Position numbers and translations under genes: made by a program
The notes under the pieces: generated by a model
Told to the model about the DNA's origin: nothing
The model's database searches: none
Seen by the model: the letters and a program-made list of their open reading frames with translations, nothing else
DNA from: Sphingobacteriales bacterium
GTDB taxonomy: Bacteria > Bacteroidota > Bacteroidia > Sphingobacteriales > Sphingobacteriaceae
Assembly (NCBI GenBank): GCA_015655115.1
Contig: JAATFQ010000214.1
Location: 1-44,316, forward strand
Reading direction: 5' to 3'
DNA length: 44,316 bases
Shown here: positions 882-12,511 of the stretch, one piece after another
Layout: each line of letters begins with the position of its first letter
Numbering within the stretch: position 1 is the first letter of the stretch

Positions 882-2787
882 AGCAGTCCATAAACTCCCA
901 GGCACTTTTATAGGCCCCAATTTGTTCAGCATAGCCGATAAAATCAGTATAAAAGGATAAGCGTGATAAGGTTGCGCTGTCTCCTATAACTACCAGTTTT
1001 TTCCGTGCACGTGTCATTGCAACATTCATTCTTCTGGTATCTGCCAAAAACCCTATTATTCCCTCGCCATTGCTGCGCACCATGCTGATATAGACAATAT
1101 CGCGCTCCTGCCCCTGGAAACTATCTATGGTATTAATCGTAATTTTCCCGGCATAAGGCTGTAATTCCGCAGCATGAAGAAACAGATCTTTGAGCACCAG
1201 TACCTGCTGCAGATAAGGGGAAATAATCCCTACAGTAGGAAAATTTTCCAGGGTATGAATTGCACACAGCTCATGTACAAGCTGCGTCAGATGGCTCAGC
1301 AACAATGCAGCTTCATCCGGATTGACAGCACTGGTGCCTTCAGCTTTTTCTTCATATCCTGTTCCTGCCGTGTCGATAAAGGTAAGTGGCATGTCCTCCG
1401 CAAAAAGCTGGTGATGAGCTACAGTATCATGGGCTTTCAGCTTGTTTTCATAAAACACATGAGAAGAATACTGCATGATCTTTTCATTCATCCGGTACTG
1501 TTCTTCCAGAAGGGTAACGGCCCCGGGATGAAGCGTCACACATTTTTCCAGCAGCGTGGTACTTAAGCCTTTTTTCGCCGCTTCGCCGGACTTGATGGTA
1601 GGCGGTAACTGACAGTGATCTCCGGCAAAAACTACCTTTTCGGCTTTAAGCAGCGGTATCCAGCATGCAGGCTCAAGTGCCTGCCCTGCTTCGTCAATAA
1701 CCACGGTACCATATCTGCGGTTACGTATGGTATAATGATTGGAGCCTACAAGAGTTGCGGCAATAACCTGTGCTTTATTTAGGAGGTCTTCAACCATATA
1801 TTGCTCTATATCACCTACTTCTTTACCGATCTTCCGTGCTTCATTGAAAAGAGCCCTGCGTTGTTCCTGCTCGGCCTTGCCAAAATTCCGTTTATACTTG
1901 TGTGCCATGTTCTTATATTCCAGGCCTTGCTTTTTCAAAGCTTTCAGCTGCTTCATTCCGCTATGACCAGACAGTTGATGGTCTAGAGTAAGCGACATCA
2001 GCGGGGCTGAAACTTTGGCGGGATTTCCAATACGGATAACGGAAATGCCCTCGGCAGCTAACTTTTCACTGAGGAGATCTACTGCGGTATTACTTGGCGC
2101 AACAACCAGTATCTGTTGATGTTCCTGTTTGATCAGGGCCTTAACAGCCTGTACAAGAGTAGTAGTTTTCCCGGTTCCCGGCGGACCATGGACAATAGCA
2201 AGTTCATTAGCTGCCAGGATCTGATCCACCGCTCTTTGCTGTGCCTGGTTTAACCGGGGGTTGACATACTTAAATACTGCTGGCTTAAAGCCGGGAGATG
2301 CTGCTCCGGTAAGTATCTTACTCAATCGTGGTTCTTCATTATCCTTAACCGCATCTGCAGCAGATTTCAATGCAGCCTGCATTTCGTCATAGCTGTTGTT
2401 ATCAAAAAGCAGGTCTATGCCCAGCTTTCCGTCGGATGTCCAATCCGGCAATTCATCGGTACGCAGTGTAATTTTGATCCTGTTGCCGCTGATGTACCCT
2501 ACTACACCTTCCAGCCGGTCTGTGTTGGGATCGTGATTTGAAAACAGAACTACCGAAGCCCCAAAGCGGAACTGATGCGAAAGATCCTGATGCGTAGTCC
2601 GCTCCAGCTCTACTGAAAGGTAATCGCCCCTGCTCATTTCTGTACCCCTGATGGCTATAGGATACCAGCTGAGTCCATTGGCCCTGCGATCTGTAACTGA
2701 AGTCGACCGTGTGAGCCTGAGATACGAGCTAAGGTCTTCCTCACGTTCTATTTTGATCAGCTCAAGCAGGTTTTTAAAATATTCCAT
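880..2787 (-). CDS. SF1 helicase, UPF1/IGHMBP2-like
   Basis: Superfamily 1B DNA/RNA helicase of the UPF1-SMUBP2 group, 635 aa. The N-terminal ~170 residues form the beta-barrel-like region of the family. Walker A GPPGTGKTTT is at residues 201-210, motif II is VVIDEAGQA near 363-370, motif III is VVFAGDHCQLPPT, followed by EEQYRMN, and the C-terminal AAA_12 half has TIDSFQGQERDIV and NVAMTRARKKLVVIG. All nucleotide-binding motifs are intact, so it should be an active ATPase. Substrate and pathway cannot be read from sequence; Bacteroidota homologues are usually annotated only as AAA-domain proteins. It lies 28 bp downstream of the HAD gene on the same strand, so co-transcription is likely. Confidence 0.92.
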   Translation of the reverse strand: MEYFKNLLELIKIEREEDLSSYLRLTRSTSVTDRRANGLSWYPIAIRGTEMSRGDYLSVELERTTHQDLSHQFRFGASVVLFSNHDPNTDRLEGVVGYISGNRIKITLRTDELPDWTSDGKLGIDLLFDNNSYDEMQAALKSAADAVKDNEEPRLSKILTGAASPGFKPAVFKYVNPRLNQAQQRAVDQILAANELAIVHGPPGTGKTTTLVQAVKALIKQEHQQILVVAPSNTAVDLLSEKLAAEGISVIRIGNPAKVSAPLMSLTLDHQLSGHSGMKQLKALKKQGLEYKNMAHKYKRNFGKAEQEQRRALFNEARKIGKEVGDIEQYMVEDLLNKAQVIAATLVGSNHYTIRNRRYGTVVIDEAGQALEPACWIPLLKAEKVVFAGDHCQLPPTIKSGEAAKKGLSTTLLEKCVTLHPGAVTLLEEQYRMNEKIMQYSSHVFYENKLKAHDTVAHHQLFAEDMPLTFIDTAGTGYEEKAEGTSAVNPDEAALLLSHLTQLVHELCAIHTLENFPTVGIISPYLQQVLVLKDLFLHAAELQPYAGKITINTIDSFQGQERDIVYISMVRSNGEGIIGFLADTRRMNVAMTRARKKLVVIGDSATLSRLSFYTDFIGYAEQIGAYKSAWEFMDC

Positions 2788-2815
2788 TATAACAATTTAG
2801 TACCTGATATAGCTA

Positions 2816-5745: not shown

Positions 5746-7320
5746 ATGGAAAGCTTAAGCACCAAAATTTTTAAAAATGAGTTTGCTGATATGTTTGAAG
5801 GCGATGTTAGCGGACAGCTAAACCCGAGGCAAACCCCCGGAGTTTTTTACGCAAAAGCAATCCCCACTCCCGTAAAAGCACCACAGCTGTTAGCCTGGTC
5901 TGAAGAACTGGCCGGCGAGCTGGAAATTGCTGAGCCTGATGAAACGGATGTTGATATATTGGCAGGAAATTTCATCTCAGCATCCATGTTCCCCTATGCC
6001 GCCTGCTACGCCGGGCACCAGTTTGGTAACTGGGCAGGCCAGCTGGGCGACGGAAGAGCCATAACACTGGGAGAATGGACTACAAGTAAAAATCTGGTAT
6101 ATGAAATGCAGTTAAAAGGTGCCGGACTTACGCCCTACTCGCGCAGAGGTGATGGCAGGGCTGTGCTGCGCTCTTCTGTGAGGGAATATCTGATGAGTGA
6201 AGCCATGCACTATCTTGGTATACCTACAACAAGGGCACTGAGCCTCGTTTCAACAGGAGATATGGTGCTGCGCGATATGTTTTACAATGGCAATGCGGCC
6301 TATGAACCCGGAGCAATAGTGATGCGGATTTCGCCAAGCTTCTTACGTTTCGGGAATTTCGAGATACTTGCCGCAAGACAGGAACATGAGCATCTTCAGC
6401 AACTGGCAGACTGGACAATTAAAAAGTTTTACCCTCATCTGGAAGCAGATAAGGAGTTTACAGCGCATCAAAAAATTATTGCATGGTATAGCGAAGTGGT
6501 AGAAAAAACAGCATCGCTTATGGTAAACTGGCGCAGGGTAGGTTTTGTGCATGGAGTAATGAATACCGATAATATGTCTATACTGGGTCTCACCATTGAT
6601 TATGGCCCATTCTCTTTCCTTGATGCCTTTGATCCTGATTTTACACCAAATACTACAGACCTGCCAGGGCGCAGATATGCATTTGATAAACAGCATACGG
6701 TTGCCTACTGGAACCTGGGATGCCTGGCAAGTGCGATCGCTCCGCTGCTGAAAACCACAGAAGAACTAGTTACTGTCCTGGAGGCTTATCAGGAGATTTA
6801 TTATGATAAATATTATGCTATGATGGCCAACAAGCTTGGGATAGACCAACGAGAGGATGGCGACAGCGGCTTAATAGATGCCTTTGAGCAAATGCTGGCA
6901 ACGGTAAAGCCAGATATGACTATCTTCTACCAGCTGCTTACCACCATGCCACTCACCCTTGTTCATCAGGAAGAGATATTGTCCTATTTTAATCCCTGCT
7001 TCTATAGTCAGCCCAGCGATTCGGAAGCCTTTTTTATGCTGATCAATACCTATCTGGAACGGATCGCGGCAAATACCTCTTCAGCAGAAAGTCGCCTCAT
7101 AAAGATGCGCGCAAACAACCCACGTTTTATATTAAGGAATTATATGCTTCACGAGGCTATAGGTAATCTGGAGAAAGGCGACAACCGTTTATTTATGAAA
7201 TTGAAAACTGCCATGCAACAGCCCTATGATGTTATTGATGATGAGGATGAGTTTTTTAAATTAAGGCCACAATGGGCAGACGACCAGCCCGGCAGTTCTA
7301 CCTTGTCCTGCAGCTCCTGA
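5746..7320 (+). CDS. selO: SelO/YdiU protein adenylyltransferase
   Basis: Pseudokinase-fold protein of the SelO (UPF0061/YdiU) family, 524 aa, full length. Known members transfer AMP from ATP to Ser/Thr/Tyr of target proteins in redox-stress responses. Family hallmarks visible are YAGHQFGNWAGQLGDGRA (residues ~88-105), the LKGAGLTPYSRRGDGRAVLRSS stretch just after, VHGVMNTDNMSILG with the catalytic-loop Asp/Asn, and DYGPFSFLDAFDP (metal binding). The protein ends in SCSS: the Cys near the C-terminus corresponds to the selenocysteine of eukaryotic SelO, and cysteine is the usual bacterial form. The ATG lies next to a -7-like box. The gene stands alone. Confidence 0.95.
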   Translation: MESLSTKIFKNEFADMFEGDVSGQLNPRQTPGVFYAKAIPTPVKAPQLLAWSEELAGELEIAEPDETDVDILAGNFISASMFPYAACYAGHQFGNWAGQLGDGRAITLGEWTTSKNLVYEMQLKGAGLTPYSRRGDGRAVLRSSVREYLMSEAMHYLGIPTTRALSLVSTGDMVLRDMFYNGNAAYEPGAIVMRISPSFLRFGNFEILAARQEHEHLQQLADWTIKKFYPHLEADKEFTAHQKIIAWYSEVVEKTASLMVNWRRVGFVHGVMNTDNMSILGLTIDYGPFSFLDAFDPDFTPNTTDLPGRRYAFDKQHTVAYWNLGCLASAIAPLLKTTEELVTVLEAYQEIYYDKYYAMMANKLGIDQREDGDSGLIDAFEQMLATVKPDMTIFYQLLTTMPLTLVHQEEILSYFNPCFYSQPSDSEAFFMLINTYLERIAANTSSAESRLIKMRANNPRFILRNYMLHEAIGNLEKGDNRLFMKLKTAMQQPYDVIDDEDEFFKLRPQWADDQPGSSTLSCSS

Positions 7321-7431: not shown

Positions 7432-8862
7432 TTAGTTCATTTTCAATTTCTTCTGGATATCGGTTACATAACCTTTAAACTTCTTATCGGTATCGATCAG
7501 GTCTTCTACCGTCTGACAGGCATAAATAACCGTAGAATGATCGCGTCCGCCATAAAAAGCACCTATACTTTTTAATGAAGATTTAGTCAGGCTTTTAGAC
7601 AGGTACATAGAGATCTGCCTGGCCTGTACAATCTCACGTTTACGTGTCGGAGATTTAATCATATCTACCGGAACTTCGAAATACTCGCATACCAATTGCT
7701 GTATATAGTCCATTGATATTTCCTTAGTCGTATTTTTAATAAAGTTCTTCAGCATTGACTTCGCAAGAGGCAGGTCAATATCTTTCTTGTTCAGTGTAGA
7801 CTGCGCCAGCAGGGAAACCATAGCCCCTTCCAGCTCACGCACATTATTATCAATATGCTGTGCTACATACTCCACCACTTCTGTAGGGAGTTCAATACCG
7901 TCACTATACATTTTCTTTCTCAGGATCGCAATACGCGTCTCCAGATCAGGAATCTGCAGATCTGCAGAAAGACCCCATTTGAAACGGCTTAACAAACGCT
8001 CTTCCACACCCGACAAATCTTTCGGTGCTTTATCTGAGGTGATGATGATCTGCTTGCCCGACTGGTGCAGGTGATTGAAAATATGAAAGAAGATATCCTG
8101 TGTTTTTTCTTTTCCGGCAAAGTTATGCACATCATCCATGATGATCACATCCATCGCCTGGTAAAAATTCACAAAATCATTTATAGTATTATTCTTTAAC
8201 GATTCGACAAACTGCTGGCAGAATTTTTCGCAGGATACATAAATCACCAGCTTATCGGGTAAACTACGCCTGATCTCATTGCCTATAGCCTGCACCAAAT
8301 GCGTTTTACCTAACCCTACAGCACCGTAAATCATTAATGGATTAAATGATGTCGCCCCGGGTTTCGCGGCAACAGCGAAGCCCGCAGAGCGCGCCAGACG
8401 ATTGCAGTCGCCCTCCACATAATTTTCAAATGTGTAATTAGAATTCAGCTGGGGATCCACGTTTAATTTTTTTAAACCTGGTATTACGAAAGGGTTTTTA
8501 ATGTCTTTATTGATAGCTACCGGAACCGGCATCGATTGTGATTTAGATGCTGCCCCGTTTCCATTTGATGGCATACTTGTAGTATAAGGTGAACCGCTAT
8601 TGGAGGATTTGTCTACCACGATATTATATTCCAGGCGACCTTCTTCTCCGAGCTGTTGTTTAACAGTTTTACGCAAAAGCCCAACATAATGCTATTCCAG
8701 CCATTCATAGAAGAATAAACTGGGAACTTGTACAGTCAAAATATGGCCTTCCAATTTTAGGGCTGAGATCGGTTCGAACCAAGTTTTAAAACTTTGGGCC
8801 GGGATGTTATCCTTAATGATTTGGAGACAGTTATTCCATACTTCGCTACAAGTTTTTTGCAT
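7432..8862 (-). CDS. dnaA: DnaA replication initiator, in-frame amber at codon 57
   Basis: Chromosomal replication initiator; it binds DnaA boxes at oriC, melts DNA and loads helicase. Reading from the ATG at 8862 gives domain I ([14 protein letters not shown], then the [16 protein letters not shown] stretch and SLFFYEWLE), then TAG at 8692-8694, then [10 protein letters not shown] in the same frame and the rest intact: Walker [10 protein letters not shown], Walker [20 protein letters not shown], and domain [15 protein letters not shown]. Without the stop it would be 476 aa, normal for Bacteroidota. The remainder after the stop is open from a TTG at 8676 (414 aa) or an ATG at 8574 (380 aa), both lacking domain I. 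A single G-to-T change of a Glu codon, or a sequence error, explains it. A possible promoter with TAATTTTT lies just upstream. Confidence 0.9.
8692..8694 (-). other. In-frame TAG inside dnaA
   Basis: Plus-strand CTA reads TAG on the dnaA strand between codons for ...FYEWLE and HYVGLL.... From memory of Sphingobacteriaceae DnaA this position is Glu (GAG or GAA). Frame is preserved on both sides, so this is a nonsense substitution and not an indel. Confidence 0.9.
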
Positions 8863-9070
8863 AGTTATTCTAAAAATTATCAGTATTTTAAATCAAAAAC
8901 AACGAGACACGATCTGCCGAATTGGGAGGGCGAAGATCCAAAAAATTACCAACATTTTAAGATAAAATCTCACCTATTTCTTAAGTTGCTCAGAAGCACC
9001 TAGATATGATTTCAATTTCGGGGACCGTTGTTAATAACTAAATTGAACAACATGGTTATCCAGGGAGAAT

Positions 9071-9100
9071 AAACCGGGTTAGCTAACGGCTACCCGGTTT
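9071..9100 (-). terminator. Probable terminator of fabV
   Basis: Perfect 9-bp stem AAACCGGGT (9071-9079) / ACCCGGTTT (9092-9100), beginning 7 bp after the fabV stop. The following minus-strand sequence TTTATTC is only moderately T-rich. Confidence 0.55.
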
Positions 9101-9107
9101 ATAGCGG

Positions 9108-10298
9108 CTATACTAAGCCAGAAATTTCTACTACTTCATTTACATCTGCCTCATAGTCAATGCCAGCGACATCAAACCCGAACAGGTTCATAAAATCTTT
9201 TTTATACCCTTCAAGATCTCCGATTTGCGGAAGGCTTTCTGTTGTAGCTTCCGGCCACAATGCAGCTACCTTAGCCTGAATATCTTCGCGCATTTCAAGA
9301 TCGTCTACACGGATTCTTCCCTTCTCATCTGTAGGTACAGGTTTACCTGTATATAACCTTTCGCTGAATAAACGCTGCATCTGCTCAATACAACCTTCAT
9401 GAACGCCTTCTTCTTTCATTATTTTATAGAGCAATGAAATATATAAAGGGATCACAGGAATAGCAGAACTCGCCTGGGTAACCAGGGCCTTATTCACAGA
9501 AACAAATGCACTTCCGTGAAGATCCTTCAGCTTGTCGTTGATCACGAATGCTGTTGCTTCTAAATTGTCTTTAGCACGCCCGATCGTTCCTTTACGATAC
9601 ACGGCCTCAGTGAGGGATGGACCGATATAAGAATAAGCTACCGTAGTTGCTCCTTCAGCAAGCAGGCCGGCAGCTTTCAGATCGTCAATCCAGAATCCCC
9701 AGTCTTCACCACCCATTACAGCAATGGTGCTTTCAATGTCTTCTTCATCCCCGGGCTGAATGGAAATATCAGTTACAATGCCAGTATGAAAATCTACTGT
9801 TTTATTGGTAAACGGTTGTCCGATAGGTTTCAATGTAGAATTATATACTACCCCGGTTTTCGGATGTGTCCTCCGTGGCGAAGCCAGGCTATAGATAATC
9901 AGGTCAATCTGCCCCAGGTCGGCCCTGATCAGGTCCATTGTCTTTTGTTTAATCTCGTCAGAGAAGGCATCGCCATTGATACTCTTCGCATATAAACCGG
10001 CCTTATGTGCCTGTTCTTCAAAAGCGGCAGTGTTGTACCAGCCTGGTGAAGCAGTTTTCTCTGGTGCAGGCGGCTTTTCAAAATATACACCTATAGTGGA
10101 TGCATCTGATCCAAAGGCGCTGGTGATTCTTGAGGCAAGTCCGAATCCTGTTGAAGCACCGATAACAAGTACTCTTTTAGGACCAGCAATCGATCCTTTT
10201 GATTTAACGTAGTTAATTTGATTGACAACGTTTTGCTCACACCCTGTCGGATGAGCAGTCAGGCAAATAAAGCCACGTATTCTAGGTGCAATAATCAT
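9108..10298 (-). CDS. fabV: FabV-type enoyl-ACP reductase
   Basis: Trans-2-enoyl-ACP/CoA reductase, 396 aa, full length; it performs the last reductive step of fatty-acid elongation with NAD(P)H in the cytoplasm. FabV signature is clear: N-terminal MIIAPRIRGFICLTAHPTGC, the cofactor-binding VLVIGASTGFGLASR (residues ~43-57), SLASPRR near 138-143, and the catalytic Y-x8-K as Tyr234 to Lys243. Enzymes of this type are generally less sensitive to triclosan than FabI. A perfect -7 box lies 19 bp before the ATG. The stop codon is TAG. Confidence 0.96.
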   Translation of the reverse strand: MIIAPRIRGFICLTAHPTGCEQNVVNQINYVKSKGSIAGPKRVLVIGASTGFGLASRITSAFGSDASTIGVYFEKPPAPEKTASPGWYNTAAFEEQAHKAGLYAKSINGDAFSDEIKQKTMDLIRADLGQIDLIIYSLASPRRTHPKTGVVYNSTLKPIGQPFTNKTVDFHTGIVTDISIQPGDEEDIESTIAVMGGEDWGFWIDDLKAAGLLAEGATTVAYSYIGPSLTEAVYRKGTIGRAKDNLEATAFVINDKLKDLHGSAFVSVNKALVTQASSAIPVIPLYISLLYKIMKEEGVHEGCIEQMQRLFSERLYTGKPVPTDEKGRIRVDDLEMREDIQAKVAALWPEATTESLPQIGDLEGYKKDFMNLFGFDVAGIDYEADVNEVVEISGLV

Positions 10299-10344: not shown

Positions 10345-11799
10345 CTATTTTACGGGTATTTCCTTTAACACAGATGTTAAAAATACCCAGAATTTTTGAA
10401 CTGATGAGATCTGTACGCATTCATCCGGAGAATGTGCCCCATGAATAGTAGGACCGAAAGAAATCATGTCCATCCCTGGGAAATGTGCACCCAGGATACC
10501 ACATTCTAATCCGGCATGACAAGCTTCAACTTTCGGCTCTTTGTCAAAGTTACTACGGTACAGCTTCACCATTAACCGCAGAATATCTGAATCCGGATTA
10601 GGTTTCCAGCCGGGATAGTCGCCCCCCTGGGTTACGCTGCAACCCATATTTTCAAAAGCGGCGCTTACAGCATGGGCTACATCGTCCTTTGTACTTTCTA
10701 CACTGCTGCGCTGTAATGACTGGGTAATAAATTCTCCGTCTTTTACAATTACCCTGGCCAGGTTGGTAGATGCTTCTACAAGATTGTCAATATCGGGACT
10801 CATCCTGAATACTCCGTTTGGCAATGCGTAGATCGCATTAACGATTTTTATAAAATCAGCTTTCCCCATTACCTGCTGGGGCAGACTTGTTTCTGTTACA
10901 GTAAGCGTTAATGATGATTCAATGGTATGGTATTCTTCTTTTAAAATTGTTGCAAAGGTATTGCAGTAGGCTAAGAATATATCTTTCTGGCTGTTTGGCA
11001 CTGCCACTACTGCTGTAGCTTCACGCGGGATGGCATTTCTTAAACTTCCGCCATCAACACTGCCGAGTTGCAGTGCAAAAGATTTTAAGGCTCCATATAA
11101 TAAACGGTTGATGAGCTTATTGGCATTTCCACGGCCTTTATGAATGTCCATACCCGAGTGCCCACCCATCAATCCTTTGATAGAAATGGTAAAAGCCGCA
11201 CTGTCTTCAGCAACAGGTTCCAGAGAATAGGCATAAAATGTATTGGTGTCTATGCCACCTGCACAGCCTATAGTCAGCTCATCATCTTCTTCAGTATCCA
11301 GATTTAAGAGTATAGTACCACTGAAATTTGCAGGATCCAGCTGCATGGCTCCTGTCATGCCGGTCTCCTCATCAATGGTAAACATGGCTTCTAACGCCGG
11401 ATGTACGATAGTTTCATCAGCCAGTAATGCCATGATAGCCGCCACTCCAATACCATTGTCGGCCCCCAGAGTAGTACCTTTCGCCCTCACCCAGTCGTCC
11501 TCAACCAACATTTCGATACCCTGCACATCAAAATCAAAATCGGTGTCTCCGTTTTTCTGATGTACCATATCCAGATGCGACTGTAACACTACTGTCTTCC
11601 TGTTCTCCATACCTGCCGTTGCGGGCTTTTTGATCACCACGTTACCTGTACGGTCGCACACTGTTTCCAGTCCTAATTGCTGACCGAAGGCCATCATAAA
11701 AGCGATTACTCTTTCTTCTTTTTTCGATGCGCGGGGGATGGCGTTTAAATTGCTAAAGTTACTCCAGAGCTCCTGGGGAGCTAAATTTTTGACTTCCAT
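10345..11799 (-). CDS. pepD: PepD-like aminoacyl-histidine dipeptidase (M20)
   Basis: M20C metallopeptidase (Xaa-His dipeptidase/beta-alanyl-histidine dipeptidase type), 484 aa from the ATG at 11799. Metal-site motifs are visible: QSHLDMVHQ with His/Asp, GTTLGADNGIG with Asp, DEETGMTGA with the catalytic Glu, NLDTEED, and the C-terminal GPTIHGAHSPDE with His. The central lid domain (GLMGGHSGMDIHKGRGNA) is typical. An in-frame ATG at 11844 gives 15 extra residues without homology; typical members start close to LxPxxLWxxF, so I prefer 11799. Cytoplasmic; cleaves short peptides. It precedes fabV, which has its own promoter. Confidence 0.93.
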   Translation of the reverse strand: MEVKNLAPQELWSNFSNLNAIPRASKKEERVIAFMMAFGQQLGLETVCDRTGNVVIKKPATAGMENRKTVVLQSHLDMVHQKNGDTDFDFDVQGIEMLVEDDWVRAKGTTLGADNGIGVAAIMALLADETIVHPALEAMFTIDEETGMTGAMQLDPANFSGTILLNLDTEEDDELTIGCAGGIDTNTFYAYSLEPVAEDSAAFTISIKGLMGGHSGMDIHKGRGNANKLINRLLYGALKSFALQLGSVDGGSLRNAIPREATAVVAVPNSQKDIFLAYCNTFATILKEEYHTIESSLTLTVTETSLPQQVMGKADFIKIVNAIYALPNGVFRMSPDIDNLVEASTNLARVIVKDGEFITQSLQRSSVESTKDDVAHAVSAAFENMGCSVTQGGDYPGWKPNPDSDILRLMVKLYRSNFDKEPKVEACHAGLECGILGAHFPGMDMISFGPTIHGAHSPDECVQISSVQKFWVFLTSVLKEIPVK

Positions 11800-11890
11800 T
11801 AAAATGTTATAAACAGAATTACGGTTGATTACCAGCAACTCCATATTTAAATATTAAATTATGAACCGACGAAATTAAGAATAATAGCAC

Positions 11891-12511
11891 TTATATTCTC
11901 GCAATTGTTTTACCAAGATACCAAAACAAATAACTAAAAAAAGGGGCAGCGATAATATCGGCTGTATAATGCACATGCTGAATAAGTAACAATACCGCTA
12001 AAATGAATGTAGCCACAAAGGCGATCCGCTTTTCCCACTTGTTCTCAAGGCATAATGCTACCAGGCACAAGGTAGCGGTGTGACCGGAAAAAAACAGGTC
12101 TTTCGTAATCACATTTGAGCCATAAAAAAAAATAGAAAATGGGTCATGCAGGTGCATCAGTCCTACCGGTGGCTCCAGAGGAATAATGGAGATAGTGATC
12201 ATCCTCGCCAGACATAGAAAAACATAGCCCCACAATGCAGTAATGCACATAGTGGATTGTCTGATCACACGCCAGAAGAAAAATCCCGTAATAGGATATA
12301 AAAGCATGAAAATATACGTGGAAACATCATAAGAAGGTATCCTGTTCAGCAGCGCATCATTGATTAAAACGCCATTTCTATGCTGTATAAAAAGGAAAAA
12401 ATCTGGTATGAAAAACAGAATTACCGACAGGCATATTACCCCTAAAAAGAACTTCACGCGAAAAGCCGGATAATCCCATGCTACTTGCCAGGGTAATGTT
12501 TTAGATTGCAT
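11891..12511 (-). CDS. PAP2_C / sphingomyelin-synthase-like membrane enzyme
   Basis: Integral membrane protein of 206 aa with about six hydrophobic segments and no signal peptide. The active-site pattern matches the sphingomyelin-synthase-like branch of PAP2 (PAP2_C) rather than classical PAP2 phosphatases: SGHTA with His144, and HYTAD with His181 and Asp185, giving the H-H-D triad; upstream, RMITISIIPLEPP resembles the family's R-x3-T...LPxP motif. Sphingobacteriaceae make sphingolipids, so a head-group transfer to ceramide, or lipid phosphatase activity, is plausible; neither can be proved here. The gene has a -7 box and a palindrome just upstream, and is divergent from the L,D-transpeptidase. 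Confidence 0.8.
   Translation of the reverse strand: MQSKTLPWQVAWDYPAFRVKFFLGVICLSVILFFIPDFFLFIQHRNGVLINDALLNRIPSYDVSTYIFMLLYPITGFFFWRVIRQSTMCITALWGYVFLCLARMITISIIPLEPPVGLMHLHDPFSIFFYGSNVITKDLFFSGHTATLCLVALCLENKWEKRIAFVATFILAVLLLIQHVHYTADIIAAPFFSYLFWYLGKTIARI

Follow-up and report, generated by a model that had tools for sequence, protein, structure and literature searches.

DnaA is normally encoded by a single gene. In the window analysed here, a stretch of 44,316 nucleotides from a Pedobacter genome bin, a dnaA frame is interrupted by an in-frame TAG codon, which the initial annotation described as a break in the essential initiator gene. The locus raises the questions of whether the stop codon is real, which dnaA gene carries it, and how its presence could be tolerated.

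Results

A TAG codon takes the place of an invariant Glu codon

The interrupted gene, referred to here as dnaA2, lies on the minus strand (Table 1). Translation of its frame (8862..7432) confirms that the amber codon is present in the contig: the frame begins with ATG, meets TAG at codon 57 and is then open until the TAA at 7432-7434. With the TAG entered as X, the translation comprises 476 residues with matches to the Pfam profiles DnaA_N (residues 6-68), Bac_DnaA (139-300) and Bac_DnaA_C (385-452), all above cut-offs. Thus, all three DnaA domains are present in one frame, which is interrupted at codon 57. Domain III contains the Walker A and Walker B motifs.

Table 1. Features of the dnaA2 locus in the window
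Feature	Position	Strand	Basis
dnaA2, accessory dnaA paralogue; 476 codons, broken by TAG at codon 57	7432..8862	-	translation, Pfam, neighbourhood, tree
In-frame amber codon TAG replacing an invariant Glu codon (codon 57)	8692..8694	-	translation, comparison of dnaA frames
Domain I (DnaA_N), broken by TAG	8659..8847	-	67.3 bits, one TAG inside
Domain III, AAA+ ATPase (Bac_DnaA), with Walker A and Walker B	7963..8448	-	212.6 bits, alignment
Domain IV, DnaA-box-binding helix-turn-helix (Bac_DnaA_C)	7507..7710	-	103.7 bits
TTG, candidate start; first possible in-frame restart past TAG, would give 414 aa lacking most of domain I	8674..8676	-	ORF 7432..8676
ATG, codon 97, candidate start; first in-frame ATG past TAG, product without domain I	8572..8574	-	Met-97 in translation
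Intergenic leader of dnaA2, aligns with orthologues; TTATTAACA where P. cryoconitis-type copies carry a TTATCCACA DnaA box	8863..9107	-	alignment, box search
Trans-2-enoyl-CoA reductase gene, conserved upstream neighbour	9108..10298	-	neighbourhood comparison, Pfam
M20-family peptidase gene, conserved upstream neighbour	10345..11844	-	neighbourhood comparison, Pfam
PAP2-family phosphatase gene, conserved upstream neighbour	11891..12511	-	neighbourhood comparison, Pfam
SelO protein adenylyltransferase gene, conserved convergent neighbour on the other side of dnaA2	5746..7320	+	neighbourhood comparison, Pfam

The frame was compared with 81 distinct reference dnaA frames, aligned in 84 rows because three genes were entered twice, i.e. 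31 frames of the canonical gene (dnaA1), 15 of dnaA2, 14 of dnaA3, 11 of a fourth accessory group and 10 from other genera. The 81 frames share 245 invariant columns, and the window copy deviates from these solely at Glu-57. Because this Glu is invariant in the reference frames, the TAG matches a single base change from a Glu codon. The proposed origin from such a codon agrees with a wider comparison covering 117 further distinct dnaA frames of Pedobacter, including the incomplete copy on contig C54 described below: codon 57 is GAA in 73 of them and GAG in the other 44. Among the 13 other distinct dnaA2 frames, GAG occurs in 10 and GAA in 3. An internal TAG was found in the window copy only, among the matches listed (144 dnaA matches in 118 genomes), and an in-frame stop is present in none of the 15 dnaA2 orthologues.

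The interrupted gene is an accessory paralogue

The bin (4.89 Mb in 294 contigs, 80.9% complete and 0.39% contaminated) contains three dnaA genes according to profile searches: dnaA2 of the window and, each on a short contig, C197:1507-2931 and C54:5054-6076. The copy on C197, dnaA3, is complete. The copy on C54, dnaA1, runs off its contig after 341 codons, is undamaged up to there, and has no deviation at the 170 invariant columns that it covers. The domain I frames of both genes are intact. Thus, a second dnaA in the strain, which had been proposed as one way to account for the stop and for which a search of the genome had been suggested, does exist, and there is also a third. A break in the essential initiator gene is not supported: the window copy is an accessory paralogue and the canonical dnaA is on C54, where its sharing of an organism with dnaA2 rests on binning.

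These assignments are based on gene neighbourhoods and phylogeny. Among the other dnaA2 loci, the PAP2, M20 peptidase and enoyl-CoA reductase genes are upstream in 11 of the 12 for which this region is available, and the SelO gene is downstream in 11 of 13; the window copy has this same arrangement. C54, by comparison, shows the upstream genes of single-copy Pedobacter dnaA (families F3 and/or F7), as do 24 of the 25 other class-1 loci for which the upstream region is available. The canonical neighbourhood and tree position are both found for C54 and neither for the window copy. Because C197 carries only one other, transporter-like frame, the dnaA3 class of its copy rests on the trees.

With ten sequences of other genera as the root, the protein tree recovers Pedobacter dnaA as a single clade (support 99), within which a dnaA1 group (31 rows, support 89) is set apart from an accessory group (42 rows, SH-aLRT 99) that includes the window copy, dnaA3 and the fourth set. 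This topology points to duplication of dnaA inside the Pedobacter lineage. At the base of the accessory group, the window copy and the dnaA2 copies of MR2016-24 and L105 are unplaced, and dnaA2 is not recovered as a separate supported clade. The DNA tree places the window copy and locus L011 in an open group together with dnaA3. In both trees, dnaA1 of C54 is separate from dnaA1 of the other species with three dnaA genes, with low support. The fastest-changing copy in the set is a dnaA3-like gene (L164, G014:C404) with nine deviations at otherwise invariant columns.

The canonical gene on C54, presumably the essential one, and dnaA2 are alike in domain order, length, and ATPase and DNA-binding motifs, and are identical at 304 of 340 residues over the available part of C54. 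Eighteen positions distinguish the dnaA1 and dnaA2 classes (conserved at ≥90% within each). Unlike dnaA1, dnaA2 has a different neighbourhood, a position in the accessory clade and the TAG. The orthologues of dnaA2, which are found in P. cryoconitis, P. hartonius, P. antarcticus, P. westerhofensis, Pedobacter sp. L105, MR2016-24, MC2016-15 and others, are 93-96% identical to it at the protein level and mostly have its neighbourhood; the in-frame stop sets the window copy apart from them.

Multiple dnaA genes are conserved in a part of the genus

Among 145 Pedobacter genomes surveyed for dnaA matches at E ≤ 1e-100, three genes were found in 16, two in 22, none in 1 and, among the matches listed, a single one in 106. 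Thus, 38 of the 145 genomes have two or three full-length dnaA genes, and these have conserved neighbourhoods. All 88 sampled genomes from other genera of the order have a single dnaA. The 15 genomes with a dnaA2 orthologue all have further dnaA genes, with three copies in 14 and two in the fifteenth, G006. In the latter (a single contig of 4.80 Mb; loci L133 and L134), dnaA2 and dnaA3 were the only matches and dnaA1 was not found; for the gene usually located upstream of dnaA1, the only match was a relative of 36% identity. This could be explained by a large deletion or by missing sequence. We considered G006 as a genome that lives without dnaA1 and set this idea aside: the assembly is 84% complete and gave no RF1 match over the cut-off, so that missing sequence is equally likely.

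The upstream region of dnaA2 and the location of dnaA relative to the origin

A search of the 600 bases upstream of dnaA2 in the window, allowing one mismatch, gave no TTATCCACA-like site. We rejected loss of this DnaA box as a sign of decay because four relatives (L141, L015, L017 and L019) share TTATTAACA, and the change is thus not specific to the window copy. Nearly all dnaA1 loci listed have two upstream sites, a TTATCCACA-type box near -175 and another site near -91, and most accessory copies outside the subclade of the window copy have a box near -160 to -180. The recurrence of these boxes suggests that the copies may share autoregulation. Within 8863-9107, one stretch (about GGATCTTCGCCCTCCCAAAACGGCAG in the orthologues) is more conserved than the other intergenic sequence of the leader.

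A location of dnaA2 at the origin was also considered and rejected. In two single-contig relatives, in which GC skew was sampled coarsely (20 samples of 20 kb per genome), the cumulative minimum is near 4.9 Mb (G019) and 4.4 Mb (G006); the dnaA copies are at 0.0, 2.43 and 2.85 Mb in G019 and at 2.22 and 2.80 Mb in G006, so that no copy is at the minimum in either genome.

The lesion in dnaA2 is very young or an artefact

Against 13 orthologues, dnaA2 of the window has a mean pN/pS of 0.045, within the range of 0.029-0.050 of the orthologues themselves, and, not counting the TAG, five amino-acid changes are private to it (six to the MR2016-24 copy). Domain I, before and around the TAG, has a pN of 0.034 and is as conserved as in the orthologues and as the remainder of the gene. 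Neither pN/pS nor the alignment revealed further decay beyond the TAG. As judged from these substitution patterns, purifying selection acted on dnaA2 up to the tip of the branch. A rough hand calculation took the neutral rate over the branch to be 0.54 changes per site or more; a gene evolving neutrally for a fraction f of the branch would then be expected to accumulate approximately 590 f amino-acid changes. With five observed, f is under about 2% and, therefore, the loss would be young. Because dnaA2, TAG aside, evolves like its orthologues, the lesion appears to be either very recent or an error in the consensus.

A second lesion affects domain I of dnaA3

In dnaA3 on C197 (L010, about 2760-2800, minus strand), one of two consecutive Phe codons has been lost by removal of 3 bases from a TTCTTC repeat. 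The affected column 50 is invariant in all 81 reference frames. In an alignment to E. coli domain I (2e0g), column 50 corresponds approximately to Phe46 and column 57 to Asp53, both in helix 3 by position. Phe46 of E. coli DnaA is a contact for DnaB and DiaA, as stated in a passage of a review (PMC5448010). Of the 245 invariant columns, 34 fall in domain I; both lesions being in this domain would be a coincidence of about 2%, a pattern noticed after the fact and a lead only. The loss of the Phe codon would fit a relaxed demand on domain I of the accessory proteins. It is conceivable, and in our estimate a long shot, that the three Pedobacter DnaA proteins, with their shared DNA-binding and ATPase parts, split the work of initiation, and that both accessory proteins here are losing domain I, dnaA2 by the stop at codon 57 and dnaA3 by loss of the Phe at or next to the position of E. 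coli Phe46, and are changing from initiators that load the helicase to regulators that bind origins or promoters.

Discussion

Based on the TAG, the presence of three paralogous dnaA genes in the bin, the neighbourhoods of these genes and the past constraint on dnaA2, we suggest a recent nonsense mutation tolerated through redundancy, a scenario to which we give an even chance. In this scenario, the window gene would be the dnaA2 gene of a Pedobacter clade that retains three dnaA genes, in which the Glu codon at position 57 has recently changed to TAG. Translation would end after 56 residues, within domain I, and full-length DnaA2 would not be made; at most, a restart at the TTG (8676) or the ATG (8574) would give a fragment with the ATPase and DNA-binding parts and without domain I. 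Because dnaA1 on C54, and perhaps dnaA3 on C197, would provide initiator activity, the loss of DnaA2 would be tolerated. Three elements of this scenario are inferred, namely that the TAG is a true mutation rather than a consensus error, that dnaA1 is sufficient and that the full-length protein is absent. It has to be weighed against the absence of other decay in the gene, the low number of nonsense mutations in the bin, the location of the end of dnaA1 beyond codon 341 outside the contig, and the reliance on binning for placing C54 in the same organism.

A single wrong base in the consensus would be expected to give the identical sequence, and this counts against a recent mutation. The TAG could be an error of sequencing or of the consensus, or a minor allele that entered the consensus of a metagenome-type bin, with dnaA2 intact in the organism. 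We rank a recent loss ahead of this explanation, which follows close behind and is a real possibility. It is in line with the draft state of the bin (294 contigs, 80.9% complete), the lone base change inside an otherwise constrained gene and the occurrence of the TAG in none of the 15 orthologues. To judge the integrity of the bin, the frames of relatives were aligned to 0.62 Mb of it, giving 51 matched stretches, of which two antisense ones were dropped (L009 5378-5833, opposite dnaA1, and L319 6383-6874, opposite a 701-aa frame) and the remaining 49 were taken as genes. As dnaA2 alone among these 49 contains an internal stop, nonsense mutations, whether true or erroneous, are not abundant in the bin; the 48 further genes, which together with dnaA2 amount to approximately 19,000 codons, argue that nonsense errors are infrequent, a result compatible with a single wrong base as well as with none. 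The second lesion, the in-frame loss of 3 bases in the repeat of dnaA3, is also atypical for a base-call error. The alternative that the TAG is functional or bypassed in part, by restart at the TTG or ATG or by low-level readthrough to the full-length protein, is unlikely, even though both in-frame starts are present and domains III-IV are intact. According to a passage in a review, E. coli DnaA lacking domains I-II can open oriC in vitro but does not support viability in vivo when it is the only DnaA (PMC5448010); the in vitro activity is compatible with a restart product. By contrast, domain I of dnaA2 is conserved as in its orthologues (pN 0.034) and would thus have been in use until very recently.

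Reading of the TAG as an amino acid, through an amber-suppressor tRNA or reassignment, is scarcely credible. Its one attraction is that RF1 (prfA) was not found in the bin, whereas 9 of the 10 relatives compared have a match above the cut-off. However, RF2 is missing too, and RF2-type matches are present in 10 of 10 relatives; because the relatives have both factors, their absence reflects missing bin sequence and not biology, and we rejected the absence of RF1 as a sign of reassignment. The sole RF-1-family (PF00472) match in the bin is in a 177-aa frame at C126:18110-18466. A suppressor tRNA, which the initial annotation had asked to be looked for, did not emerge: none of the 27 tRNA genes found in the 81%-complete bin, from which many isotypes are missing, has a CUA anticodon (150 of 213 first-look candidates were scored). 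TAG also serves as a normal stop here, as had been supposed, since it terminates 4 of the 34 selected main ORFs of the window as well as dnaA3 on C197, and an internal TAG is present in none of the 14 other aligned genes of the window. For instance, the TAG at 9108-9110 coincides with the end of the homologues, with 396 of 396 residues in the alignment. Thus, neither a CUA tRNA in this incomplete bin nor avoidance of TAG as a stop codon marks dnaA2 as a recoded or suppressed gene.

A stop codon within a redundant paralogue is an ordinary finding. Of more interest than the TAG are the three conserved DnaA initiators in a Pedobacter clade, i.e. in a free-living genus in which the accessory genes form one clade, have kept their chromosomal places and are under strong purifying selection (pN/pS of 0.03-0.05 for dnaA2). 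If a recent nonsense mutation is indeed the cause of the TAG, the bin analysed here would provide an example from nature of the loss of one dnaA. Why several initiators are kept is directly testable by gene removal in the culturable P. cryoconitis and P. hartonius.

More than one dnaA gene has been described in other bacteria. According to passages of a 2011 survey, 40 of the 1,067 complete genomes covered carry two dnaA genes, with Chlamydia, Parachlamydia, Fibrobacter, Desulfovibrio, Salinibacter and one Pedobacter among them (PMC3080875), and Acidaminococcus fermentans is described in part of another report as having two adjacent dnaA genes (PMC4403523). Among the matches listed from a search of the open-licence PMC literature, no paper on three dnaA genes in Pedobacter was found. 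In the passages of the 2011 survey, the maximum is two dnaA genes per genome (PMC3080875), whereas the Pedobacter clade described here has three, in conserved places.
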